From Acetivibrio sp. MSJd-27 (lineage in GTDB: Bacteria; Bacillota; Clostridia; UMGS1840; HGM11507): 64,000 bases of DNA. Positions 4,596-56,181 of the stretch are shown here, in pieces. The stretch is taken from positions 1-64,000 of the forward strand of contig NZ_JAHLPV010000013.1 in the NCBI RefSeq assembly GCF_018918095.1, written 5' to 3'. Each line of letters opens with the position of its first letter. Position 1 is the first letter of the stretch. A model generated the notes under the pieces. It did no database searches. It saw nothing but the letters and a program-made list of their open reading frames with translations, and was not told where the DNA came from. The position numbers were made by a program, and so were the translations under genes.

Positions 4596-4644
4596 AACTC
4601 CTTTCTCTCTGTTAAAATTTTTTACAGAGAGAAAGGAGTTTTTT
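4596..4644 (+). promoter_or_regulatory. 17-bp perfect hairpin with T tract, containing the vanY RBS
   Basis: AACTCCTTTCTCTCTGT (4596-4612) is exactly complementary to 4624-4640 across an 11-nt AT-only loop, and is followed by six T. The 3' arm carries AAAGGAG, the only Shine-Dalgarno sequence of vanY (ATG at 4647). In RNA this would be both an intrinsic terminator and a fold that hides the ribosome binding site. It could therefore attenuate vanY, unless transcription starts inside the left arm. Confidence 0.65.
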
Positions 4645-10118: not shown

Positions 10119-10139
10119 TTAACAATGTTAACCAAAATG

Positions 10140-10173
10140 TTAGCACTCATCATCGTTGAGTGCTAACATTATA
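10140..10173 (-). promoter_or_regulatory. CIRCE operator (HrcA) with groES -10 box
   Basis: TTAGCACTC (10140-10148), nine nt, then GAGTGCTAA (10158-10166) is an exact match to the CIRCE consensus, the HrcA repressor site of Gram-positive heat-shock operons. A TATAAT -10 box for leftward transcription abuts it at 10173-10168, so HrcA would cover the transcription start. A clear -35 at ideal spacing was not found. hrcA itself is not in the window. Confidence 0.95.
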
Positions 10174-37596: not shown

Positions 37597-37641
37597 AAAA
37601 GCAGCGGATCCTCCGCAAATAATCTGCGGAGGATCCGCTGC
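37597..37641 (-). terminator. Terminator of LCP3
   Basis: GCAGCGGATCCTCCGCA (37601-37617) is perfectly complementary to 37625-37641. In the leftward direction the stem is followed by TTTTG. It lies 24 nt after the LCP3 stop codon. Confidence 0.85.
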
Positions 37642-37665
37642 TTAAAAAAGATAGTATCGATAGCA

Positions 37666-54606: not shown

Positions 54607-55155
54607 TTATTCGCCAAAGCCTGCGTTGTCCGCATTCAGCAAAACTGCACCGGCCCCTAAATTGATATCAATATAGTGGGCGTCAACACGAACTTTAAAC
54701 CGCCTTCCGGATCTACACCCATCCTGCGGCATGCTTACACTGATATCCTCCGGCATGATAAAACGAATCGGCGCCACTCTAACATTGGTGCATCCCATGT
54801 TGTGATGAGCTGGAACCGTCATTATCTTCAGCCCCCGATGGTATTCTCTCTGAAAACAATCCAGTTCATAGAGCTGGACACTTAACGCAACCCGTTTGCC
54901 AGGACATATATTGCGCAGCGTAACGGTTAGGTCCAGAATTCTTCCCTGATTTTCTATCGGTCTGCTTAACTCAACTGTCTTTGCATCTTCACAAGACGTA
55001 AAGGCAATCTCATTTCTGGAACAGGGAGAAGACTTGCAAAAGGATTCTTTTGAACTTTTTGGGACGAATGATGTTTCTGCTTCCGATTGGGACTGCGCAT
55101 TCATTTCAGAAAATTGATTTCCCAGCGATAATTTTCCTAAATTAATTTTATCCAT
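54607..55155 (-). CDS. Conserved-looking protein of unknown function, RBS in a palindrome
   Basis: The ATG at 55155 follows AAGGAGC. The 182 residues have a low-complexity N-terminal third (MNAQSQSEAETSFVPKSSKE), then a beta-rich part with ILDLTVTLRNICPGKRVALS, HRGLKIMTVPAHHNMGCTNV and FKVRVDAHYIDINLG. I recall similar uncharacterised proteins in Clostridia but cannot name a family. There is no signal peptide. The ribosome binding site lies inside a 22-bp perfect inverted repeat, and the gene shares a transcript with the membrane protein at 54177. Confidence 0.65.
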   Translation of the reverse strand: MDKINLGKLSLGNQFSEMNAQSQSEAETSFVPKSSKESFCKSSPCSRNEIAFTSCEDAKTVELSRPIENQGRILDLTVTLRNICPGKRVALSVQLYELDCFQREYHRGLKIMTVPAHHNMGCTNVRVAPIRFIMPEDISVSMPQDGCRSGRRFKVRVDAHYIDINLGAGAVLLNADNAGFGE

Positions 55156-55159
55156 AAAT

Positions 55160-55216
55160 TTTGCTCCTTCCTTTACATACAATATAAATTATACTGTATG
55201 TAAAGGAAGGAGCAAA
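55160..55216. promoter_or_regulatory. 22-bp perfect palindrome over the start region of the 54607 gene
   Basis: Positions 55160-55181 are exactly complementary to 55195-55216 across a 13-nt AT-rich loop. Each arm contains AAGGAAGGAGC, so a Shine-Dalgarno sequence faces outward on both strands. The loop contains TATAAT on the - strand. It could be an operator, an RNA fold that hides the ribosome binding site, or a divergent start region. Confidence 0.7.
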
Positions 55217-55523
55217 TCTATAGAAATGCAATCGATAAAACCGGGATGTTGTAATTGTATTCCTGTCTGTGTACTATAATGGTATGCATGAAAACCGCTG
55301 TTTGATACAACTTGGCCATTTTTATCTGGCAGAAAAATAGATTTCTCACCTTCAGAACCGCTTTCCTTTCTCTTTCTCCAGGCATTCCCAGAATTGGATC
55401 TGAATAAGATCTCTTTTGTCAGGCTGATATACCGAACACTTTCCAGCTTAAATATAAATTAATTGAATTTTATATCATTTTAATATATTTCATCGAATCC
55501 TTTTACCATCTTAGTGTGAGCCA
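55217..55523. other. Gap between divergent genes, no clear content
   Basis: This AT-rich stretch contains only very short frames, the best being a 17-codon frame at 55226-55279 (see findings). I see no RNA gene. Confidence 0.5.
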
Positions 55524-55532: not shown

Positions 55533-55581
55533 CTTTTCATAAAAACGTATCCACCACATTATCTTGAAAGGAAATCATGTT

Positions 55582-56181
55582 ATGAAACCTATTGTTTTTA
55601 AAGGATCTGCTGCAGCGCTTGTAACGCCAATGGGGAAAGATTATGAAGTAAATTATGACACATTGGATAGAATCATTGATTTTCAGCTTTCAAACGGAAC
55701 AGACGCTATTGTCGCAGCCGGCACAACCGGCGAATCCGCAACGCTCAGCGATAAAGAACATATCGCAATCATAAAATTCTGTGTGGAAAAGGTCAAAGGG
55801 GCAATTCCCGTTATCGCAGGCGTCGGAAGCAATAACACCCGGCATGCAGTGGAGTTATCCAAAGCCGCCGAAGCGTGCGGTGCCGACGCCCTGCTTCACG
55901 TCACTCCGTATTACAATAAAGCGTCGCAAAATGGGTTATATCTGCACTTTAAAGCATGTGCGGAATCCACTAACCTTCTGGTTATACTGTATAATGTTCC
56001 CACAAGAACAGGCGTTAATATTCTTCCTGAAACGTATCAGAAGCTATCCGCTATATCAAACATCGTTGCGGTTAAAGAGGTAAGCGGAAATTTTTTACAA
56101 ATGAAAAAACTTCCGCATTGTGCGGTCGTTTACTATTTTCGGTGCAACATCGTTCGTCTTTGTCTTTCCGAAAACCTTTGA
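55582..56181 (+). pseudogene. dapA: 4-hydroxy-tetrahydrodipicolinate synthase, truncated
   Basis: The ATG at 55582 follows AAAGGA. For about 173 residues it is a normal DapA (Class I TIM barrel): PMGKDYEVNYDTLDRIIDFQ, AAGTTGESATLSDKEH, HVTPYYNKASQNGLY, catalytic Tyr in LYNVPTRTG and Schiff-base Lys in VAVKEVSGN. After SGNFLQ the frame runs for about 26 unrelated residues, where a normal enzyme (about 290-300 residues) would continue. It meets the equally truncated LRR gene on the opposite strand. DapA condenses pyruvate and aspartate semialdehyde for lysine and diaminopimelate; this copy should be inactive. Confidence 0.85.

Follow-up and report, generated by a model that had tools for sequence, protein, structure and literature searches.

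A palindrome overlapping the putative promoter and the translation start of a Clostridia gene may act as a filter against read-through transcripts

In the 64,000-nucleotide stretch of Acetivibrio sp. MSJd-27 DNA analyzed here (contig NZ_JAHLPV010000013.1, positions 1 to 64,000; hereafter the window), a leftward gene for a protein of 182 amino acids has a long, nearly perfect palindrome as its leader (Table 1). The protein has no match in Pfam or NCBIfam, its AlphaFold model is of low confidence (mean pLDDT 63, beta-rich) with no fold match in the PDB at E 0.001 or better, and no relatives were found in viral contigs. In GTDB genomes 96 relatives were found and 80 kept; in most of these the 182-aa domain is the C-terminal domain of Clostridia proteins of ~460 aa, which presumably resemble von Willebrand A proteins. 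The 182-aa gene is without the N-terminal part present in the homologues, and its promoter may therefore not descend from theirs. Its upstream neighbor on the minus strand is a leucine-rich-repeat gene that ends at 56095. A dapA-like ORF on the opposite strand (55564–56181) aligns to no more than the initial 173 of 289 profile positions before running out where the leucine-rich-repeat gene ends; it appears to be a truncated copy or a rearrangement border.

Table 1. Features of the palindrome locus and of the vanY leader, in window coordinates
Feature	Position	Strand	Remarks
57-bp inverted repeat	55160–55216	both	arms 55160–55187 and 55189–55216, centre 55188
Full hairpin of leftward read-through RNA	55151–55224	−	~35-bp stem with one bulge; SD and start codon inside
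Candidate −35, ATA	55219–55221	−	sigma-E type; 18 nt upstream of the −10; in the hairpin, paired to the region of the start codon
Likely −10, CATACAGTA	55192–55200	−	sigma-E/sigma-K type; 45 nt before the ATG; overlaps TATAAT 55193–55188
Inferred transcription start region of own promoter	55181–55188	−	
Shine–Dalgarno (SD) sequence AAGGAAGGAG of the 182-aa gene	55164–55173	−	in the left arm, which is the 3′ arm of the RNA; 8 nt upstream of the ATG
182-aa gene	54607–55155	−	start ATG 55155; the palindrome is its leader
Mirror SD (55203–55212) and 17-codon Cys-rich ORF (55226–55279; MQSIKPGCCNCIPVCVL)	55203–55279	+	candidate ORF, ATG 55226
vanY leader hairpin	4596–4640	+	17-bp arms, SD in the 3′ arm, then a T-run; GTTAAAATTTT in the loop

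A repeat search of the window returns the palindrome with arms of 28 nt that are 96% complementary, separated by 1 nt and interrupted by a single mismatch (55182/55194). The outer 22 bp of the arms are perfect, as the first-pass annotation had described, and form the longest perfect inverted repeat in the 64-kb window. That annotation had also called the palindrome far beyond chance, and this is borne out by 30 first-order Markov copies of the window, in which the longest chance arms measured 9–13 against 22 here. Alignment of the two halves extends the complementarity to 55151–55224, at the cost of one gap or bulge and two transitions, and takes in the start codon. Folded as minus-strand RNA, the extended hairpin has an energy of −47.2 kcal/mol and a z-score of −12.0. 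Each of the three mismatches in the stem, one central and two outer, becomes a G-U pair when the RNA runs leftward and A-C when it runs rightward, which would be expected by chance 1 time in 8. A chimeric origin in assembly or amplification, which can produce palindromes, is hardly credible for an inverted copy that ends after ~36 bp with diverged edges, unlike a chimeric join.

Several familiar classes of inverted repeat were rejected. The stem is followed by no T-run on either strand and the A/T polarity of its arms is the reverse of that in terminators, which rules out an intrinsic terminator. The palindrome is a single copy in the genome and matches no plasmid, which rules out a REP, a MITE or an insertion sequence end; an 18-base piece of it has no match in viral contigs. 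No Rfam family reaches the gathering score anywhere in the window, the palindrome included, so that a known RNA family is likewise excluded. A longer inverted duplication of the flanks is ruled out by a flank alignment score of 19 against a shuffle median of 18, and a palindrome common to the homologues is ruled out by its absence from their leaders.

The right half of the palindrome contains a likely promoter: minus-strand positions 55221–55192 read ATA-N18-CATACAGTA, and in a motif test this −10 fits those of the sigma-E and sigma-K regulons, CATACANT and CATANNNTA. The leaders of the homologues point the same way. The 80 loci gave 61 usable leaders, 51 of them full length, and CATANNNTA, which was fixed beforehand among five patterns, occurs in 21 of these 51 (shuffles mean 1.2, max 5; reversed 3). 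CATANNNT, which like CATANNWTR was chosen afterwards, occurs in 47/51 (mean of 4.8 and maximum of 10 in shuffles, 7 in reversed sequence). Its median distance to the start is 51 nt (IQR 46–53), as against 45 nt in the 182-aa gene. With the −35 element included, AC-N15-17-CATANNNTA is present in 10 of the 61 homologue leaders (shuffles 0.5, reversed 3), and sigma-E patterns with ATA are present in none of the 61. In 864 kb of the genome (800 kb in 40 stretches, plus the window), ATA-N16-18-CATACANT has eight matches against four in the reversed control, and the palindrome holds the only one that leads into an SD and an ORF. The spacer is 18 bp at the 182-aa gene versus 15–16 bp, by eye, at spoIVA and spoIIID of this genome (ATA-N15/16-CATAT), which we take to be sigma-E regulon genes. 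This spore-former has genes for SpoIVA, sigma-E, SpoIIID and sigma-K, all above cut-off. According to excerpts from PMC3789822, sigma-E and sigma-K share the −10 and differ in a −35 of ATA or AC, with 16–18 bp as the more classical spacing. A promoter of the mother-cell type, read by sigma-E, sigma-K or both, is thus well supported by motif and family comparison. The choice between the two factors is not, because the family favors the AC form of sigma-K, whereas the ATA of the 182-aa gene fits sigma-E. A consensus scan found no standard sigma-A promoter within the palindrome; TTGCTC-16-TATAAT was seen by eye only, and its TATAAT, which the first-pass annotation had reported as −10-like, lies on the minus strand at 55193–55188.

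Two alternative readings draw on the symmetry of the locus. In the first, a symmetric divergent promoter would also drive a rightward small peptide of 17 codons with four Cys: CATACAATA is found on the plus strand too (55176–55184), together with an SD and the ATG at 55226. The gap of 13 nt from this SD to the ATG, the very short ORF and a rightward −35 ATA spacing that by eye would be 19 leave little to recommend it. The SD sequence does occur in each arm, at 55173–55164 on the minus strand and at 55203–55212 on the plus strand, and to that extent the reported SDs on both strands are real; probably one alone is functional, and the other is its mirror image. In the second reading, the palindrome is a DNA operator, bound by a symmetric repressor or activator where it overlaps the promoter. 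The near-perfect symmetry around the promoter and the half-sites TTTACATAC/GTATGTAAA would suit such a protein. Usual operators are, however, far shorter than this symmetry, which moreover reaches into the start codon. Sites resembling an arm occur elsewhere in the genome with two mismatches (one site) or three (three sites), and those with at most one mismatch are the palindrome's own two arms, so that no such operator stands before other genes. We regard an operator as improbable.

The position of the putative promoter within the palindrome has a direct consequence for RNA folding. In a series of RNAs with different starts, the SD of the 182-aa gene has an accessibility of 0.00–0.01 when the RNA begins at 55212 or further upstream, where a stable stem takes up the SD in its 3′ arm, and of 0.81–0.92 when it begins between 55198 and 55174; from the inferred own start the value is 0.83–0.85. 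The AUG is also paired when the RNA begins at 55225 or beyond. Among the 537 genes screened in the 864 kb, the folding energy is the lowest (−47.2 against a mean of −16.8, sd 6.5) and the SD is the most closed. These calculations suggest a model in which the right half, 55189–55224, would be the promoter, probably read by sigma-E and/or sigma-K, and the left half, 55151–55187, would be an untranslated leader, reverse-complementary to that promoter, in which the SD and the start codon lie. An mRNA begun at the gene's own promoter, near the centre of the palindrome, could not fold shut, because the 5′ arm of the hairpin is the promoter half and would be absent from it; it would be translated. 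An RNA entering from upstream would contain both halves, form the ~35-bp hairpin over the SD and AUG, and stay silent. The element would in this way sort messages by their origin and keep a sporulation gene off under stray transcription. A simple scan found no minus-strand terminator between the stop of the leucine-rich-repeat gene at 56095 and the palindrome, and promoter-like sites in that interval near chance level. We give a probability of about one half to the reading that the palindrome is a read-through filter, with promoter and translation start folded onto each other.

The first-pass annotation had proposed an RNA-based or protein-based switch. An RNA-based element whose 3′ arm holds the SD agrees well with the data; the likely promoter inside the palindrome points away from a sensing switch and towards a filter for the origin of transcription. 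A conditional switch in an upstream-started transcript, responding to temperature, a ligand or a protein, would also account for the full pairing of SD and AUG in the long RNA. It is nonetheless very improbable: a stem as stable and near-perfect as this offers scant scope for conditional melting, no Rfam family was found in the window at the gathering score, and the likely promoter lies within the element.

A further alternative concerns origin. In template switching, a described mechanism (PMC7202029, PMC3820800), replication copies one half of a quasipalindrome from the other, so that the two become reverse complements, and the hairpin could be an unselected by-product of such a mutation next to an ordinary promoter and SD. 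The element is a single copy absent from the homologues, and near-perfect arms around a 1-nt centre are what such events leave. On the other side, promoter and SD are arranged in the same way as at spoIIR, vanY and sigG (see below), and three of three mismatches keep the pairing in the sense RNA. We consider an unselected hairpin unlikely, although a functionless relic keeps some weight, because the element is known here from sequence and no relative carrying it is at hand. Template switching is an account of origin and is compatible with function, and it is the likely source of the palindrome in any case.

Conservation of the gene family does not extend to the hairpin: no close relative was found to carry the element, and the SD is closed in the read-through RNA of 9 of the 61 homologue leaders, near background. 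In the leaders of the 460-aa homologues (L014–L093), a small G+C-rich hairpin often lies right behind the sigma-K-type −10, with a mean energy of −7.9 kcal/mol versus −2.8 in shuffled sequence and p ≤ 0.05 in 27 of 38; this is possibly a 5′ stabilizer of late mother-cell mRNAs.

Within this genome a similar layout does stand before a few other genes. Perfect stems of at least 9 bp over the SD precede 3 of the 366 genes with an ATG and a strong SD in the 864 kb, against none of 732 shuffled leaders; they measure 22 bp at the 182-aa gene, 17 at vanY and 10 at a gene with a Spore_II_R domain (spoIIR). The vanY hairpin with its ribosome-binding site in the 3′ arm, to which the first-pass annotation had likened the palindrome, is present as reported, and the gene behind it encodes a VanY domain. 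In both the vanY and the spoIIR leader the pairing partners of the SD are centred 10 nt before a sequence that we take to be a sigma-F-like −10 (GTTAAAATTTT in the vanY loop, GTCAATGCTT in the spoIIR loop), that is, in the promoter spacer. Accessibility of the SD changes from 0.00 in read-through RNA to 0.82–0.90 from the own start at vanY, from 0.07 to 0.64–0.85 at spoIIR and, looked at separately, from 0.00 to 0.47 at sigG. In the spoIIR leader (G000:C4:3347, L112) the spacer sequence CCTCCTT pairs with the SD AAGGAGG, and a T-run follows. The suggestion that such a switch recurs in this organism thus holds in a limited sense. Weaker occlusion (SD open < 0.05) shows little excess, with 23/366 genes versus 27/732 shuffled leaders, and opposed SD cores show none, with 9 places genome-wide versus 11 in the control, in a scan whose gap limit of 35 just misses the palindrome (gap 37).

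Inverted repeats with arms of at least 14 number 62 in the 864 kb, and a script assigns a T-rich tail to 22 of them. An SD-like word with a possible start at the arm accompanies three of the 62, all in the window: the palindrome, the vanY hairpin and the minus side of the repeat at 37599. Apart from these three, most of the 62 have, by eye, A...T arms like terminators. The repeat at 37599 (37599–37643) consists of 19-bp perfect arms around a 7-nt loop; it follows closely on the stop codon of the minus-strand ORF 38613–37666 and is probably a terminator. Other repeats were noticed in passing. A dispersed family of 38-bp palindromes has a GGGAG...CTCCC core between CCGC and GCGG ends and constant flanks tgcatagcagtg and atatggaacccg, with several copies in the 800-kb sample (L103, L108, L109, L112). 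At 10136–10170, TTAGCACTC-N9-GAGTGCTAA precedes the minus-strand ORF 10085–9801 and is presumably a CIRCE-like element (HrcA operator). At three contig starts (L103, L109 and L124, near position 358), ttcgacaggctg stands immediately upstream of inverted repeats that differ from one another, so that one repeated sequence forms the beginning of several contigs.

The spoIIR gene links the forespore and the mother cell, and its leaders were compared across the class. Of 148 genomes, 105 have a match to PF09551 (SpoIIR), and 71 leaders were assembled from the 30 best-scoring loci, 40 fetched loci (those of the four closest relatives plus 36 that come after them in the list, with one omitted because it lay at a contig end) and our own; 12 had no acceptable start and 59 were counted. 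The SD is closed (<0.1) in the read-through RNA of 18 of the 59, against a mean of 5.75 and a maximum of 10 in 20 sets of dinucleotide shuffles, and 19 of the 59 rank at or below 1 of their 20 shuffles. Occlusion is thus commoner than the 9–12% of other genes under similar settings, namely 4/37 spoIIR neighbors (p = 0.03), 35/290 genes of the homologue loci (p = 0.001) and 46/521 genes of this genome (p = 1e-5), although related species count as separate leaders and the independent events are therefore fewer than these counts. Among the 24 leaders with a sigma-F-like −10, a pattern chosen after the leaders had been inspected, the read-through RNA is closed in 13 (1.9 in shuffles, max 6), and from the inferred own start the leaders are as open as their shuffles (0.63 vs 0.61). 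Shortening any leader opens the SD somewhat, and the gain of +0.44 observed for spoIIR compares with +0.17 in shuffles. In most of the closed, motif-bearing leaders all the pairing partners lie upstream of the inferred start, the exceptions being L213 and L190; the L219 leader is closed even from its own start. By eye, the closed leaders show at least three designs, with the 5′ arm in the spacer, with the 5′ arm at the −10 end, and with unlike sequences. Our literature search, outside of which most subscription journals lay, found no paper on a spoIIR read-through hairpin, and excerpts from PMC5942855 name spoIIR only in a reference title.

These comparisons suggest a tentative generalization, to which we give less weight than to the filter itself: promoters of Clostridia sporulation genes may commonly encode an anti-SD sequence, in the spacer or at the −10 end, that would make read-through RNA of spoIIR, sigG and some sigma-E/K genes untranslatable, with the palindrome as an extreme case. 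If this is true, an anti-SD in the promoter would act as an additional lock, coupling the output of protein to the proper σ-factor, and a promoter and leader that are reverse complements over ~36 bp would be the extreme form of that design. Terminators in bacteria are leaky, and development can be thrown off course when even a few copies of a sporulation regulator appear at the wrong moment. A hairpin that forms in misplaced transcripts alone would guard against this at low cost and without any protein. Its use by spoIIR and mother-cell genes across the Clostridia would amount to a general and testable design rule. There is also a warning here: a hairpin over an SD, when it is predicted from the genome sequence, may have no regulatory role in the actual mRNA.

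Several known systems share parts of this arrangement; PMC7438776 and PMC10681294 were consulted in addition to the papers named elsewhere. RNA thermometers and translational riboswitches also sequester the SD in a hairpin; unlike them, the palindrome shows no ligand or melting domain, and the choice would here be made by the start site. Intrinsic terminators that overlap an SD likewise put that SD into the 3′ arm of an inverted repeat upstream of a gene, and the vanY and spoIIR leaders of this genome have the T-runs of that class, whereas the palindrome has none. In the leaders of T4 gene e and soc and of the IS10 and IS50 transposase genes, RNA from outside promoters folds over the SD and RNA from the own promoter does not; these are phage and transposon genes with other purposes, unlike the 182-aa gene. 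The closest relative is on record in Bacillus subtilis, where, according to portions of PMC5942855, a hairpin of more than 20 bp was proposed to block translation of sigG read-through RNA and cannot form in RNA from the sigG promoter. As far as that description goes, the two leaders have in common an SD in the 3′ arm, a stem expected only in upstream-started RNA, the gene's own promoter (here a predicted one) inside the element, and a connection to sporulation. In contrast to sigG, the stem described here is ~35 bp long, nearly perfect and covers the start codon too, and it belongs to a previously undescribed gene with a mother-cell type promoter and is known from computation. By analogy, this leader is best read as a read-through filter of the sigG kind in extreme form.
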